A stretch of DNA of 64,000 bases from Aquitalea aquatilis. GTDB lineage: Bacteria > Pseudomonadota > Gammaproteobacteria > Burkholderiales > Chromobacteriaceae. A program made the position numbers and the translations under genes. The notes beneath the pieces are model-generated. The model saw only the letters and a list, made by a program, of their open reading frames with translations. It made no database searches and was not told the DNA's origin. Numbering within the stretch: position 1 is the first letter of the stretch; each line of letters opens with the position of its first letter. Below, piece by piece: positions 6,512 to 58,267 of this stretch. Location: assembly GCF_005155025.1 (NCBI RefSeq), contig NZ_CP039731.1, positions 1,984,001 to 2,048,000 on the forward strand, read 5' to 3'.

Positions 6512-7867
6512 TCAGAATGGCAATTCTGGCTGCGCGCCTTGCGGATGATCGATGATGGCTTCGGTGATGCCTTCGGCCAGACGGAGCAGCACTCTCTCCT
6601 GATTCAACAACTCTTGTGGCGATTTAACTGCCTGCCCGTCGCGCTTTTGAACAATGGCATAGCCACGGCTGAGCACCGCTTCCGGGTTCATTGCCTCCAG
6701 TGTGGCGTGATGTCGCTGTAGCAATTGCTGTTGTCGGTCCAGCGTCTGGCTGATGCCACGTTGCATGCGCTCGGCCAGGCGGGCAAGGTGTTGCTGCTGC
6801 TGGGCAAGCTGTGGCTGGTGCCGCTGCATGCGGCTGCTGGCCAGTTGCAGTGCCCAGCGCCGGCGTGAGAACAGGGTGTCCAGCCCGCGCTGCATACGGT
6901 CGCAGGCCTGGGTCAGGGCTAGGGCCTGACGGCGCAGCTTGTCGCCGGGATGTGCCAGACGACGGGCCAGATAGTCCAGTCGTTGGGACTTGTCGGTCAG
7001 CAGACGGGACAAGGCCCGCTCCAGCCCGCGCTTGCCTTGCTCCAGTTGCAGCCGCAGTTGTTCCTGACTGGGAGAAACCAGCTCGGCAGCGGCCGTCGGG
7101 GTGGGGGCCCGGCGGTCGGCAACAAAGTCGCAGATGGTGAAATCGGTTTCGTGGCCAACGCCGCTGACGGTGGGAATGCTGCAGGCGGCAAGGGCGCGGG
7201 CAACGATCTCCTCGTTGAATGACCACAAGTCTTCGATGCTGCCGCCACCCCGGCAGACAATCAGTACTTCCACTTCCTGCCGGGTCGAGGCTTGCTGGAT
7301 GGCGGTGGCAATTTGCCGGGCGGCCGCTTCTCCCTGCACCTGTGCCGGGTAGAGGATGACGGGAATGCCAGGCATGCGTCGAGCCAGGGTGGTGACGACA
7401 TCGCGCAGTGCTGCCGCTGCTGGAGAGGTGACGATGCCGATGGCGCGTGGGTGCGGCGGCAAGGCACGCTTGCGGGCCTGATCGAACAAACCCTCGGCAT
7501 TCAGCTTGGCTTTGAGCTTTTCAAATGCTTCGTACAGTCGGCCCAGTCCGGCCGAGCGCATGGTATCGACATTGATCTGGAAGTCACCGCGGGCTTCGTA
7601 CAGGGTGACCAGTCCTTTGAGTTCCACCTGCATGCCTTCGGCCAGGCGGAAGGGGAGCAGGCTCAGCTTGTGACGGAACATGACGCAGCGTATTTGTGCG
7701 CCGCCATCCTTGAGCGAGAAATAGGCGTGACCGGAGGCTGCCAGCGTCAGATTGGATATTTCTCCGCCGATCCACATGGGGGGCAGGCCCGATTCGAGCA
7801 GGTCGCGCGCCATGCGGTTAAGCGAGGAGACACTGATAACGTCGTTGGCCGAGGTATTGAAATTCAT
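6512..7867 (-). CDS. xseA: Exodeoxyribonuclease VII large subunit
   Basis: Large subunit of the single-strand-specific exonuclease ExoVII, which degrades single-stranded DNA into oligonucleotides. From ATG 7867 (MNFNTSANDVISVSSLNRMARDLLE) the protein has 451 residues, the usual length. An OB-fold domain covers residues ~10-115 (PMWIGGEISNLTLAASGHAYFSLKD). The catalytic domain follows (RAIGIVTSPAAAALRDV, CRGGGSIEDLWSFNEE, GVGHETDFTICDFVADRRAPTPTAAAE), then a long coiled coil. A TTG at 7927 would add 20 residues with no ribosome-binding support. The small subunit gene xseB is not in the window. Confidence 0.95.
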   Translation of the reverse strand: MNFNTSANDVISVSSLNRMARDLLESGLPPMWIGGEISNLTLAASGHAYFSLKDGGAQIRCVMFRHKLSLLPFRLAEGMQVELKGLVTLYEARGDFQINVDTMRSAGLGRLYEAFEKLKAKLNAEGLFDQARKRALPPHPRAIGIVTSPAAAALRDVVTTLARRMPGIPVILYPAQVQGEAAARQIATAIQQASTRQEVEVLIVCRGGGSIEDLWSFNEEIVARALAACSIPTVSGVGHETDFTICDFVADRRAPTPTAAAELVSPSQEQLRLQLEQGKRGLERALSRLLTDKSQRLDYLARRLAHPGDKLRRQALALTQACDRMQRGLDTLFSRRRWALQLASSRMQRHQPQLAQQQQHLARLAERMQRGISQTLDRQQQLLQRHHATLEAMNPEAVLSRGYAIVQKRDGQAVKSPQELLNQERVLLRLAEGITEAIIDHPQGAQPELPF

Positions 7868-8045
7868 GGTTGTCAAGTCATCCACAGCAGGAATACCGTT
7901 TTTTGTCGTCTGTAAATTGTCGGACAATGCTTTTGGCTGGGGGTATGTTGCTTTGATTAAATTCTTTTAAAAACAATAGCTTGTGTATTTTGTTCAAATT
8001 GCGTGCAGCCGGATGAAAGCGCCGTGCCAGCAGGATATGAGCGGT

Positions 8046-8092
8046 CTGTTCACAAGCTTATCAACAAAGTTATCCACAGCATCTGTGGATGC
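8046..8092. promoter_or_regulatory. Cluster of DnaA-box-like 9-mers in an AT-rich intergenic region
   Basis: Three 9-mers begin exactly 12 bp apart: CTGTTCACA (8046), TTATCAACA (8058) and TTATCCACA (8070, a perfect DnaA box). An inverted partial match follows (TGTGGATGC, 8084-8092). They lie in the 382-bp gap between xseA and exbB, which is clearly richer in A+T than the flanking genes. Confidence 0.5.
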
Positions 8093-55240: not shown

Positions 55241-55336
55241 AACAAAACCCCCGCGCCTGCGTTGCGTCTCCTTGCCGTACTCTTGGTACTGTCTGGGTCG
55301 GCGCGCCCTGGCCCGGGTTCTCTGCGAGGTTTTGTT
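55241..55336. repeat. Small intergenic element with 9-bp terminal inverted repeats (copy 1)
   Basis: AACAAAACC at the left and GGTTTTGTT at the right. Inner blocks GCGTCTCC, ACTGTCTG and GTCGGCGCGCC also occur in copy 2 at 61914-61996. It starts 9 nt past the stop of the second paralogue. Confidence 0.7.
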
Positions 55337-55480
55337 CGCGGCGTTAAACCCTCACCGCTGCGTCCCCCCGCCACCGCCCGACTGTCGCGGGGGTTTTTAC
55401 TGCCAGGCGGGCGGCTTGCCGCCAAGTTGCCGGTTTTGCGCTACCATGCCGGCTGTTTGATGTTGACCAAGGATGCAACC

Positions 55481-56473
55481 ATGACCCGCCTGCTTGTCCT
55501 CTATAGCGGAGGCACCATTGGCATGGACCACAGCCCGGATGGCCTGGCCCCGGTGCCGGGCCTGCTGCCACGGCTGCTGGAACGTTTTCGCACGCCGGCG
55601 CTGGATTTCGATGTGCTGGAATACCCGCAGCTGATCGACTCGTCGGCCATCATGCCGGCGCAGTGGCAGCAACTGCTGGATGACCTGATTGCCCGCTATG
55701 CCGACTACGACGGCTTCGTGGTGATCCACGGCACCGACACCATGGCCTATACCGCCAGCGTGCTGGCCTTTGCCCTGCAAGGCCTGGCCAAGCCGGTCAT
55801 CGTCACCGGTTCACAACTGCCGCTGGTGCATCCGCGCTCCGATGGCTGGAGCAATCTGGCCGATGCACTGGAAGCCGCCAGCCAGCCCGATCTGCACGAA
55901 GTGTGCATTGCCTTCAATCGCCTGCTGTTGCGCGGCTGCCGTGCGCGCAAGCTGGATGCGGCCAGCTTTGCCGGCTTTGCCAGCCCCAATGCGCCGGCCT
56001 TGGCCAGCTTTGGCATCCAGGCCCAGTGGCAGCGCCAGCACTGGCTGACGCGCACTGGCGCTTTTGCCCCGGTAAAGCTGGATGTCTCGCTCAAGCTGGC
56101 CACCTTTTTCCTGACTCCCGGCTATGCCAGCACGCTGGCGGGCCAGATCATGCAGGATGGCGAGCTGGATGGCGCAGTGCTGATGAGCTATGGCAACGGC
56201 AATACCCCGGCTGATGCGGCCTTGCTCGCTGGTGTGGCCGCGCTGACGGCGCGTGGCGGTGCCGTGCTGAACATCAGCCAGGTGGTGCATGGTGCGGTCG
56301 AAGTAGGGGCTTATGCGGCGAGCCAGCCATTGGCGCGGGCCGGGGCGGTGGCCGGGGCAGACCTGACGCCAGAAGCGGCCACAGCCAAGCTGCTGGTGCT
56401 GTTGTCGCAGGGTTTGCGTGGCGAGGCCTTGCGCCAGCAGCTGGCTACCCCGCTGCTGGGTGAGAGCAGCTAA
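55481..56473 (+). CDS. ansA: L-asparaginase, type I
   Basis: 330 residues from ATG 55481 (AAGGATG upstream). Catalytic motif I YSGGTIGM (Thr12) and motif II HGTDTMAYTAS (Thr85-Asp86) are intact. No signal peptide, so it is the cytoplasmic low-affinity type. A longer reading beginning at 55262 runs through the intergenic repeat element and was rejected. Confidence 0.93.
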   Translation: MTRLLVLYSGGTIGMDHSPDGLAPVPGLLPRLLERFRTPALDFDVLEYPQLIDSSAIMPAQWQQLLDDLIARYADYDGFVVIHGTDTMAYTASVLAFALQGLAKPVIVTGSQLPLVHPRSDGWSNLADALEAASQPDLHEVCIAFNRLLLRGCRARKLDAASFAGFASPNAPALASFGIQAQWQRQHWLTRTGAFAPVKLDVSLKLATFFLTPGYASTLAGQIMQDGELDGAVLMSYGNGNTPADAALLAGVAALTARGGAVLNISQVVHGAVEVGAYAASQPLARAGAVAGADLTPEAATAKLLVLLSQGLRGEALRQQLATPLLGESS

Positions 56474-56549: not shown

Positions 56550-56651
56550 TGCCTAAAAAATAAGCGGTCTGATTTTTCATTGCCAGATCAGTAGCTTGCC
56601 CATGCTATCCACAAGCCCTCCACACCGTGGTACACGCGGGGTGGGGAAAAA
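56550..56651 (+). repeat. 103-bp repeat family, copy A (degenerate)
   Basis: Begins TGCCTAAAAAATAAGC. The 9-mer CTATCCACA starts 55 nt later (56605). The CTGTCC position reads TGGTAC. The end block is TGGGGAAAAA. It keeps family spacing but has lost the hairpin stem. Confidence 0.7.
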
Positions 56652-56660
56652 CATGGCAAC

Positions 56661-56763
56661 TGCCCAAAAAACAGGCAATGGCAGAAAGCCTGTTACCACT
56701 CAATGGTTTAGACAGTTTGTCCACAGCCCACACACAAGGCTGTCCCCTCTGCTTGTGTAAAAC
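56661..56763 (+). repeat. 103-bp repeat family, copy B
   Basis: Hairpin TGCCCAAAAAACAGGCA at 56661, 9-mer TTGTCCACA at 56717 (+56), CTGTCC at 56740 (+23), end block TGTGTAAAAC from 56754 (+14). Confidence 0.9.
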
Positions 56764-56811
56764 CGTGTGCTACCGCGCAGGAGGGCTGGCTTGGTGTGGA
56801 CGGCTGGCTGC

Positions 56812-56914
56812 TGCCTAAAAAAGCAGCAGGTCAGGAAAAGTCCATTTCTTTCAGTGCTTTGCTTCAGTTGCCCACAGGCGGTGCACAAGCCTGTCCCCGC
56901 CTGCTGTGCAAAAC
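56812..56914 (+). repeat. 103-bp repeat family, copy C (changed hairpin stem)
   Basis: Loop CTAAAAAA is kept while both stem arms differ from the family: CTGCTGC (56808-56814) pairs with GCAGCAG (56823-56829). 9-mer TTGCCCACA at 56868, CTGTCC at 56891, TGTGCAAAAC from 56905. Confidence 0.9.
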
Positions 56915-56973
56915 CATGGCCAACAGCCAGTTTCAGCGGTGGAGAGCGCCAGCAGGCTGCATAAAATGGCCAT

Positions 56974-57076
56974 TGCCTAAAAAACAGGCAGTCAGTAAAA
57001 CCCTGTCGCGTTTCATGCACTTAGCCAACTTGCCCACAGACCGTGCACAAGGCTGTCCCCGCGCCATGTGTAAAAC
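56974..57076 (+). repeat. 103-bp repeat family, copy D
   Basis: Hairpin TGCCTAAAAAACAGGCA at 56974, 9-mer TTGCCCACA at 57030, CTGTCC at 57053, TGTGTAAAAC from 57067. Confidence 0.9.
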
Positions 57077-57122
57077 TGCGGCGACGCTGCCAGGCACAGG
57101 CAGGCAGCAGGAAACGGGTACT

Positions 57123-57225
57123 TGCCTAAAAAACAGGCAGTATAGAGAAGGCTGATTGCTTTCAGCGACTTAGCCTGTTTGTCCACAAGCCACGCACAAG
57201 GCTGTCCCCGCTGGCTGTGCGAAAC
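57123..57225 (+). repeat. 103-bp repeat family, copy E
   Basis: Hairpin TGCCTAAAAAACAGGCA at 57123, 9-mer TTGTCCACA at 57179, CTGTCC at 57202, TGTGCGAAAC from 57216. It ends 86 nt before the kinase-gene start. Confidence 0.9.
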
Positions 57226-57311
57226 CGTGCACCGTGTGCAGAAATGCGCGGCAACACTACTGGCAGGCTGCCATCCCGACGTATAATCAGACTCTTTGCC
57301 GGTGCCGTGCC

Positions 57312-57851
57312 GTGTCAGTCATCAGAATCGCCGTGATCGGGCCGGAATCCTGCGGCAAGAGCACCTTGTCGCTGCAGCTGGCAGCCGCCTTGCGCAGCCA
57401 GGGCTTGCGCGCCGTGGCCGTGGCCGAATATGCGCGCACCTATTACGCCGAACGGGACTACCAGGTGAGCATGGCCGATATCGAAGCCATTGCCGCCGGC
57501 CAGTTGCAGGCCGAACAGGACGCGGCAGCAGGGCAGGACTGGCTGGTGTGCGATACCACGGTGCTGACTTGCAAGATCTGGGCCGATGTGGCGTTTGGCC
57601 AGCCTTCGCCGGCCCTGCTGCAGCTGTACCGGCCACAAGACTATGGGTTCACCTTGTTGACCGCGGCCGACATCCCCTGGCAGCCGGACCCGCTGCGCAG
57701 CCATCCCCAGCAGCGCGACTGGTTGCTGGGTTTGTACCAGGCCGAGCTGGCGCGGCAAGGCGTGGCATATACCCTAGTGCAGGGCGGGCAGGCCGCACGG
57801 CTGGCGCAGGCCTTGCAGGCGCTGGGCCGCGCAGATTTGCCTAAAAAATAA
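57312..57851 (+). CDS. NadR-like P-loop kinase (nicotinamide riboside kinase-type AAA ATPase)
   Basis: 179 residues from GTG 57312. P-loop IAVIGPESCGKSTLSLQL (residues ~6-23), VAEYARTYYAERDYQVSMADIEAIAAGQ and the Walker-B-like strand WLVCDTTVLTCKIWADVAFG match the C-terminal kinase domain of NadR. The adenylyltransferase and HTH domains of full NadR are absent. The likely reaction is phosphorylation of nicotinamide riboside; no PnuC transporter lies next to it, so the substrate is inferred. The ribosome-binding site is weak. The last codons (LPKK-stop) and the stop itself belong to repeat copy F. Confidence 0.82.
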   Translation: MSVIRIAVIGPESCGKSTLSLQLAAALRSQGLRAVAVAEYARTYYAERDYQVSMADIEAIAAGQLQAEQDAAAGQDWLVCDTTVLTCKIWADVAFGQPSPALLQLYRPQDYGFTLLTAADIPWQPDPLRSHPQQRDWLLGLYQAELARQGVAYTLVQGGQAARLAQALQALGRADLPKK

Positions 57852-57940
57852 GCAGTAGTGACAAAGCCTTTATATTTCATGGCCTTGTCCCCATTTTCCA
57901 CAGCTACCCCACAGCCCTGTCCCGCAGGCAGGTGGAAAAG
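57838..57940 (+). repeat. 103-bp repeat family, copy F (overlaps kinase gene end)
   Basis: Starts TGCCTAAAAAATAAGCA at 57838, inside the kinase gene, whose TAA stop is 57849-57851. 9-mer TTTTCCACA at 57894, CTGTCC at 57917, GGTGGAAAAG from 57931. Confidence 0.85.
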
Positions 57941-57950
57941 CGGCAGTACC

Positions 57951-58052
57951 TGCCTAAAAAACAGGCACTGCGAAAAATGGCTTTTCGCTCAAACAGTTGC
58001 AGGTCTTGTCCACAGCCGGTGCACAAGCCTGTCCAGAATGGATGTGTAAAAA
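57951..58052 (+). repeat. 103-bp repeat family, copy G (abuts S4 gene)
   Basis: Hairpin TGCCTAAAAAACAGGCA at 57951, 9-mer TTGTCCACA at 58006 (+55), CTGTCC at 58029, TGTGTAAAAA from 58043. Its last A is the first base of the S4-gene ATG. Copy F ends only 10 nt before it. Confidence 0.9.
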
Positions 58053-58267
58053 TGAATGAAATCTACAAACTGACTACCGAATACATCGCCCTGTGCGATC
58101 TGCTGAAAAGCTGCAGCGTGTGTTCTTCCGGTGGCGAAGCCAAGCATTTCATCGCCGAAGGCAATGTAGCGGTGAATGGCGTGCAGGAATTGCGCAAGAC
58201 CTGCAAGATCCGCGCCGGCCAGGTGGTGAGCGGGCAGGGCTTTACCATCAAGGTGCTTGCTGCCTGA
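58052..58267 (+). CDS. S4-domain RNA-binding protein (YbcJ-like)
   Basis: 71 residues from ATG 58052. The S4 fold is recognisable in SSGGEAKHFIAEGNVAVNGVQELRKTCKIRAGQVV. E. coli YbcJ-type proteins bind RNA, target unknown. An in-frame upstream reading starts at 57932 and adds 40 residues encoded mostly by repeat copy G; ATG 58052 with GGATG about 8 nt upstream is preferred. Stop and next ATG overlap (TGATG). Confidence 0.85.
   Translation: MNEIYKLTTEYIALCDLLKSCSVCSSGGEAKHFIAEGNVAVNGVQELRKTCKIRAGQVVSGQGFTIKVLAA

Follow-up and report, generated by a model that had tools for sequence, protein, structure and literature searches.

The window analysed here is a 64,000-nt stretch of Aquitalea aquatilis DNA (contig NZ_CP039731.1), positions 1984001-2048000 of the complete 4.36-Mb chromosome. 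Sequence inspection reveals, at 56550-58051 of this window, seven modules of about 102 bp, all in the forward direction and only about 60-80% alike to one another. To judge from its sequence, this array is very probably a tandem locus of the DARS (DnaA-reactivating sequence) type, whose seven compact modules with sites for DnaA, integration host factor (IHF) and Fis would serve the control of chromosomal replication. It lies between genes for an asparaginase-family and an S4-domain protein. An AAA_28 open reading frame (ORF) interrupts it and overlaps the head of module 6 with its end (57851), and module 7 abuts the ATG (58052) of the S4-domain gene. The features of the locus, with putative DnaA boxes numbered I to IV, are as follows:

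55262-56473, plus strand: asparaginase-family ORF, left-hand neighbour of the array; conserved part from 55460.
56550-56650, plus strand: module 1, the most degenerate; Fis-type site 56551-56565; IHF-like site 56586-56598; box IV (CTATCCACA) 56605-56613; box III 56616-56624; box II position 56628-56636; box I 56642-56650 (minus).
56661-56762, plus strand: module 2; Fis-type site 56662-56676; IHF-like site 56698-56710; box IV (TTGTCCACA) 56717-56725; box III 56728-56736; box II 56740-56748; box I (TTTTACACA) 56754-56762 (minus).
56812-56913, plus strand: module 3; Fis-type position 56813-56827; IHF-like site 56849-56861; box IV (TTGCCCACA) 56868-56876; box III 56879-56887; box II 56891-56899; box I 56905-56913 (minus).
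56974-57075, plus strand: module 4; Fis-type site 56975-56989; IHF-like site 57011-57023; box IV 57030-57038; box III 57041-57049; box II 57053-57061; box I 57067-57075 (minus).
57123-57224, plus strand: module 5; Fis-type site 57124-57138; IHF-like site 57160-57172; box IV 57179-57187; box III 57190-57198; box II 57202-57210; box I 57216-57224 (minus).
57234-57851, plus strand: AAA_28-domain ORF, nucleotide kinase-like, separating modules 5 and 6; start codon uncertain.
57838-57939, plus strand: module 6; Fis-type site 57839-57853; IHF-like site 57875-57887; box IV (TTTTCCACA) 57894-57902; box III 57905-57913; box II 57917-57925; box I 57931-57939 (minus).
57951-58051, plus strand: module 7; Fis-type site 57952-57966; IHF-like site 57987-57999; box IV (TTGTCCACA) 58006-58014; box III 58017-58025; box II 58029-58037; box I 58043-58051 (minus).
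58052-58267, plus strand: gene for an S4-domain protein, right-hand neighbour of the array.

The initial annotation had recorded seven forward copies with these starts, offsets of 55, 56, 56, 56, 56, 56 and 55 from the head of each copy to a 9-mer, and constant further steps of 23 and 14 to two more blocks. All copies and offsets are present as claimed. The block CTGTCC occurs in six copies and is replaced by TGGTAC, at the box II position, in module 1; the last block, TGTGNAAAA, differs by one base in copies 1, 5 and 6 and is intact in the others. At the Fis-type position of module 3 the second pyrimidine-purine step misfits. A sequence profile built from the seven copies (R1) recovered them in the whole genome with E values of 1.5e-25 to 2.3e-19, as it must by construction since these rows built it. 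The next candidate had an E value of 0.22, and no module besides the seven was found with R1 in the 4.36-Mb genome.

Read on the minus strand, a module consists of box I, 5 nt, box II (inverted), 3 nt, box III, 2 nt, box IV, an IHF-like site and a Fis-type site. This anatomy emerges from alignment A2, which comprises 148 aligned matches from 30 loci and from which profile R2 was built; the motif counts and the mutual-information analysis use 146 rows, the weak minus-strand matches L040:624-726 and L028:2312-2336 being dropped there and kept in A2 and R2. The conserved blocks fit sites of three DNA-binding proteins. Model positions 4-18 fit GNNYRNNWNNYRNNC, the form described for Fis sites (GnnYAnnnnnTRnnC, PMC8682772), perfectly in 92% of 120 rows from the family (Chromobacteriaceae), against 3% or less at the three next-best offsets; the head that had been described as hairpin-like fits this 15-bp site. 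The IHF consensus WATCARNNNNTTR is matched at positions 40-52 with at most one mismatch in 55% of 124 family rows (perfectly in 10%) and in none at the three next-best offsets, and an A/T run lies upstream of it at positions 27-30. The 9-mer (positions 59-67, box IV) is a DnaA box, TTGTCCACA or a near variant, with at most one mismatch to TTWTNCACA in 84% of 146 family rows. Positions 96-104 (box I) form an inverted DnaA box, TTTTNCACA on the minus strand, and fit TGTGNAWAA equally closely in 84% of 114 family rows. At the expected places of boxes III and II, positions 70-78 and 82-90, CACA and TGTCC are retained. The rigid spacing of the blocks is kept in relatives, across the 146 aligned copies from 30 loci. 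The genome itself carries dnaA, genes for IHF alpha and beta that score above the NCBIfam cut-offs, and a Fis-family protein that falls below them over a 75-aa stretch (108 bits against 122, and 95 against 99 for Fis proper).

The DARS1 and DARS2 sites of E. coli are described as sharing three equally spaced DnaA boxes, with box I opposite to boxes II and III, and DARS2 as requiring IHF and Fis (PMC5742627, PMC4245941). The cores taken from strain MG1655 read box I(+), 5 nt, box II(-), 3 nt, box III(-), that of DARS1 being TTATCCACT-5 nt-TGTGGATAA-3 nt-TGTGTATTA; box II is TTATCCACA in DARS1 and CTATCCACA in DARS2. This 9-5-9-3-9 layout is common to the minus strand of the module, to both E. 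coli cores and to distant rows from other families, and the CTGTCC and TGTGNAAAA blocks occupy the places of E. coli boxes II and I. Deletion primers (PMC4585315) place the DARS2 core at about 1136-1170 of locus L093, where both R2 and a further profile, R3, match. In an unfiltered R2 search of 20 kb comprising the E. coli DARS1, DARS2 and datA loci and the dnaA locus of A. aquatilis, gapless alignments to the DARS2 and DARS1 cores ranked second (E 0.076) and third (E 0.085) of 30; this test is weak alone because the first rank went to a non-core stretch near mutH.

R3 was built from 31 distant rows (alignment A3), none of them from the family, in 28 of the 29 fetched R2 loci (L120 was left out). 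These rows score at least 20.7 bits with R2; the E. coli cores do not exceed 7.1 bits, which means that R3 was built without them. Over 18 kb, DARS1 (24.1 bits, E 4e-7) and DARS2 (17.6 bits, E 4.5e-5) were the top two of 35 R3 matches. They were still first and second over 32 kb, where ranks 3 and 4 (11.0 and 10.7 bits) fell in the same two DARS loci and datA, E. coli oriC and the organism's own oriC reached 9.6, 9.6 and 8.8 bits. Over the whole A. aquatilis genome, R3 placed the seven array copies at ranks 1-7 (E 7e-12 to 1.3e-6), with module 3 at the top, followed by three single elements:

8012-8090 of the window, plus strand: single DARS-type element (R3 E 3.4e-6 in the whole genome).
L178 1501-1596 (G000:C1:1909615-1909710): single DARS-type element directly upstream of the organism's own priA.
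L179 1501-1588 (G000:C1:3960936-3961023), minus strand: third single DARS-like element, with TTATCCACA boxes on both strands.

The element in the window adjoins xseA (exonuclease VII large subunit; 6512-7927, minus strand) and an exbB/exbD pair. Its box II is TTATCCACA and its box I contains TGTGGAT, and upstream of the stretch that R3 matched, the predicted offset holds a perfect Fis-type site. The DARS-type element at L096, from a distant genome of the class, also lies near xseA.

Matches to these profiles are found widely in the class, which we take to be the beta- and gamma-proteobacteria together and which was sampled evenly and non-exhaustively. R2 matched 79 of 370 class genomes at E 0.01 or better, where about 4 would be expected from the E value. 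With R3 at E 0.001 or better, 332 of 377 genomes (95% completeness limit) were matched, most of them one to three times; this pool includes A. aquatilis itself and the genomes that supplied R3 rows, the latter matching by construction. In the distant rows the boxes are nearer to consensus than in R2, the profile that retrieved them: 19 of the 31 have precisely TTATCCACA at the box II position, although R2 read CTGTCC there. The gap pair 3+5 was the best of 99 (mean 23.7 of 27, against 21.3 for the next), in a test that favours it somewhat, the cores having been placed to maximise 3+5 before other gaps within 12 nt were tried.

The agreement in distant rows extends to the Fis-type site. This site stands exactly 66 nt from box III, with no more than one mismatch, in 17 of 20 rows outside the R3 training set, whereas the next-best offsets give 2 of 20, and the letters between the fixed positions are very different; the per-row mismatches allow 1 nt of slack and the offset profile none. 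Seven of the 31 A3 rows began downstream of the Fis site, and two of them (L103 and L116) have it at the predicted offset with at most one mismatch, where about 0.2 would be expected by our own arithmetic. Three more began inside its last three positions, one of which (L110) is perfect.

PriA adjoins 7 of the 29 R2 loci L096-L124 (32 loci were examined) and 13 of the 27 R3 loci L137-L163, in overlapping sets, and the other distant elements examined adjoin unrelated genes. Such varied neighbours are more readily explained by a cis element that controls replication than by a single-gene regulator. That the distant matches are origins beside dnaA was considered and rejected, a tblastn search of L096-L124 with the A. 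aquatilis DnaA being empty at E 1e-3. At L101 1501-1904 (G303, a class genome outside the order), three DARS-type modules stand in a row, with TTGTCCACA as box IV.

Within the family, the array itself is conserved. R1 matched 48 of 61 genomes at E 0.1 or better, A. aquatilis included: eight of nine genomes of the genus had 6-7 matches each (the ninth, G008, is 61% complete and had none), and all 27 family genomes in that search had four or more. The search of Chromobacteriaceae for further copies that the initial annotation had proposed gave, with R2 at E 0.001 or better, 4-8 matches per genome in all 57 family genomes that were at least 90% complete, which cover 9 of 9 genera. These per-genome R1 and R2 counts may be inflated by overlapping minus-strand matches or copies elsewhere and do not all represent array copies. 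Nineteen larger stretches were fetched for context (L073-L091), and 16 of them hold the same locus, with 3-7 modules each, in the order asparaginase, 1-5 modules, AAA_28, 2 modules, and then S4, PHP, YciO/Sua5-type and M50 genes. The last four genes are present in 16 of 16 loci, TrpS after them in 14, AAA_28 in 14 (it was not detected in L075 and L088, where modules persist) and the asparaginase to the left of the array in 15 (it was not detected in L090). In L078, about 1 kb of other sequence separates the modules from the asparaginase. The remaining three stretches (L076, L080 and L081) are other loci, in G018 and G057. In G057, from another family of the order, there are two separate arrays of 3 and 4 modules (L080 5161-5645 and L081 4963-6236), with a pseudouridine synthase and an EAL protein as neighbours of one and CNNM, MarC and a histidine kinase beside the other.

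The copies of the array look old from their sequence relationships: 70 of the 81 copies compared, from 17 loci, have their nearest counterpart in a different genome and not in their own, Aquitalea-Aquitalea pairs being excluded. This count uses 81 of 91 matches, the minus-strand ones in L082 and L083 and those of the other loci L076, L080 and L081 being left out, and some copies are partial because the profile match ended early.

The array is not where a replication origin would be expected. The predicted oriC of A. aquatilis has six TTATCCACA boxes within about 500 bp (G000:C1:1155513-1156003, L127), near the turn of the GC skew in the sampled stretches; it lies about 131 kb from dnaA, not beside it, and about 885 kb from the array, which is away from the GC-skew minimum typical of oriC. 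An origin at the array is disfavoured by the GC skew, the position of dnaA, the TTATCCACA cluster elsewhere and the low R3 score on oriC. Two other candidates were set aside: for a terminus, the window has no dif-like site and the sampled GC skew turns at about 3.1-3.3 Mb; for a plasmid origin, there was no plasmid match to 56650-57240. Relative to dnaA, used as a proxy, the array stands at about 15-39% of the genome or contig in the seven genomes with both on one contig (G000, G001, G004, G016, G018, G021 and G032), and its plus strand runs away from dnaA by the shorter arc in all seven. Position and direction are not independent evidence, because three of these genomes belong to one genus and the gene neighbourhood is shared.

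If the array is of the DARS type, DnaA protomers would occupy the near-consensus box IV, boxes III and II, and the inverted box I. Molecules on boxes I and II would stand head to head, and those on III and IV would extend the oligomer across gaps of 2-3 nt, the interval reported as most efficient for head-to-tail DnaA cooperation (PMC8682772). IHF would bend the DNA beside the DnaA boxes, and Fis would dock at the far end, as on E. coli DARS2. By analogy, exchange of ADP for ATP on DnaA would then feed the supply of ATP-DnaA and so the timing of initiation. Promotion of ADP release, and hence reactivation of DnaA, is the likeliest output of the array, with chances that are about even.

Some observations weigh against a DARS-type identity, among them certain pairing measures discussed below with RNA. 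The strongest doubt arises from boxes II (CTGTCCCCG-like) and III (NCACA kept) of the array, in which only about 5-6 of the 9 letters agree with the DnaA consensus. The least convincing part of the match is the IHF site: one with at most one mismatch was found in only 1 of the 20 new rows, where the predicted offset was best narrowly (3.1 against 3.4 mean mismatches), and in 5 of the 31 A3 rows. The regulatory part spans about 60 bp in the module, against about 400 bp in DARS2. The first-ranked R2 match on the E. coli loci (E 0.059; L093 1590-1651, directly upstream of mutH) is not a core. Finally, profile matches are chosen for their likeness to the profile, so that the motif counts lean towards it, and the E values are rough.

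The alternative that survives best keeps the same proteins and reverses their effect. The array would then be a sink, datA-like or of the DnaA-box-cluster kind, that delays re-initiation by titrating DnaA or by promoting ATP hydrolysis with IHF. The many boxes in one locus (up to 28 over seven modules) and the IHF-like site beside them are in keeping with this, and the combination of two strong boxes (I and IV) with two weak ones in a module would favour cooperative binding. Clusters that hold initiation back have been reported in Bacillus subtilis and Streptomyces (PMC5742627). However, the modules agree with DARS2 in box geometry and in the Fis-type site, and R3 gives datA 9.6 bits against 24.1 for DARS1 and 17.6 for DARS2. 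A sink or inactivator seems unlikely but keeps an appreciable chance, because boxes II and III of the array are weak though box II is strong in most distant single elements.

Among known systems, DARS2 (455 bp, between rppH/ygdT and mutH) is like the module in the orientations of boxes I, II and III, the 5- and 3-nt gaps, the order core-IHF-Fis, by the module's putative sites, and the profile match to its core. It differs in that the module has an extra near-consensus box IV at 2 nt from box III and weak boxes II and III, and in that there are 3-7 modules per locus here (17 loci) and one in E. coli. In the same DARS2 locus, the stretch L093 1590-1651 resembles the Fis-IHF-box IV half of a module. 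DARS1 (101 bp, bioD-uvrB) has the same core layout and a similar total length and is the best R3 match among the E. coli loci, but its intergenic region is without an exact WATCARNNNNTTR. The datA locus is, as the array would be, a control locus outside oriC with an IHF site among DnaA boxes; its box order and spacing are other than those of the module and its R3 score is low, and its anatomy in PMC5742627 comprises boxes and one IHF site, and no Fis site. With oriC the module shares the putative DnaA boxes and IHF and Fis sites, whereas the organism's own oriC is predicted elsewhere and R3 scores low on both origins. The clusters of B. subtilis and Streptomyces would resemble the array as DnaA-box clusters outside oriC that control initiation (PMC13220808, PMC5742627); B. 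subtilis is described as lacking IHF and the DARS and datA loci (PMC13220808).

It is improbable that the modules are cis-regulatory sites of an unrelated regulator acting on the neighbouring asparaginase, AAA_28 kinase and S4 protein genes. The contact of module 7 with the S4 start codon and the conserved neighbourhood could suggest this, but modules persist in the loci without a detected AAA_28 gene (L075 and L088) or asparaginase (L090), and elements of the same layout occur elsewhere near priA, xseA and other genes.

The initial annotation had proposed a structured RNA or a protein-DNA scaffold. The scaffold half of this proposal is upheld by the Fis-type head, the DnaA-box 9-mer and the DARS layout; the RNA half, tests of which were mostly negative, is not, and a structured RNA family, or sibling small RNAs with one per copy, is very improbable. 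Such an RNA would agree with the rigid module length, the inverted repeat in the head and the CACA/TGTG helix in the consensus fold of the seven copies. Moreover, three of five pair measures for two candidate helices exceed all 500 shuffles and all slid versions: 85.2% of cells paired against 82.3%, 63 cells changed on both sides against 41, and a covariation score of 0.131 against 0.095. However, the shuffles contain as many covarying pairs and as many pair types, and a palindromic protein site would self-pair as well. Fold z-scores are -0.2 to -1.3, the covariation term of the consensus fold is unfavourable, and the 45 strongest mutual-information pairs listed contain no helix. There is no terminator per copy (2 terminator-like sites, against 2.4 in shuffles), and the array has no Rfam match at gathering scores, the only match in the window being a tRNA at 33.5 kb. 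The least probable explanation, to which hardly any weight attaches, is a mobile or decaying repeat such as a miniature inverted-repeat transposable element (MITE) or a repetitive extragenic palindromic (REP)-like sequence: imperfect repeats at one locus, a further copy at another site in G018 and the separately located arrays of G057 could be read in this way, but there is no dispersal within the A. aquatilis genome, the gene neighbourhood is the same in 16 of 16 family loci examined, 70 of 81 copies are nearer to copies in other genomes, and blocks and spacing are conserved.

The repeat had at first been assigned to no recognised family, and a match to a named element was to refute that reading. 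This has in part happened: DARS is such an element, although it is not a MITE and was not among the families reported by Rfam here. DARS2 has been described in E. coli and proximal gamma-proteobacterial species (PMC8682772). Full-text searches of PMC, which covers few subscription papers, returned no title or abstract opening that concerns a DARS array or DARS in Chromobacteriaceae. DARS itself is known; as far as these searches show, a compact version of it set in a conserved array is new.

In E. coli, DARS sites complete the DnaA cycle. It may be, although we hold this at somewhat less than even chances, that the ancestral DARS of the beta- and gamma-proteobacteria is a compact Fis-IHF-DnaA element, about 100 bp long, which often stands upstream of priA and here and there near xseA, and that the Chromobacteriaceae amplified a diverged form of it into an old, position-stable array of several modules. 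The number of these modules would then tune ATP-DnaA and initiation timing in the manner of a rheostat. If the DARS-type reading is true, elements with one shared anatomy would be detectable by sequence across the class, the whole family would run an array of them, and the profile would serve to search for such sites. The family would then also offer natural copy-number variants for asking how the dose of DARS sets initiation.

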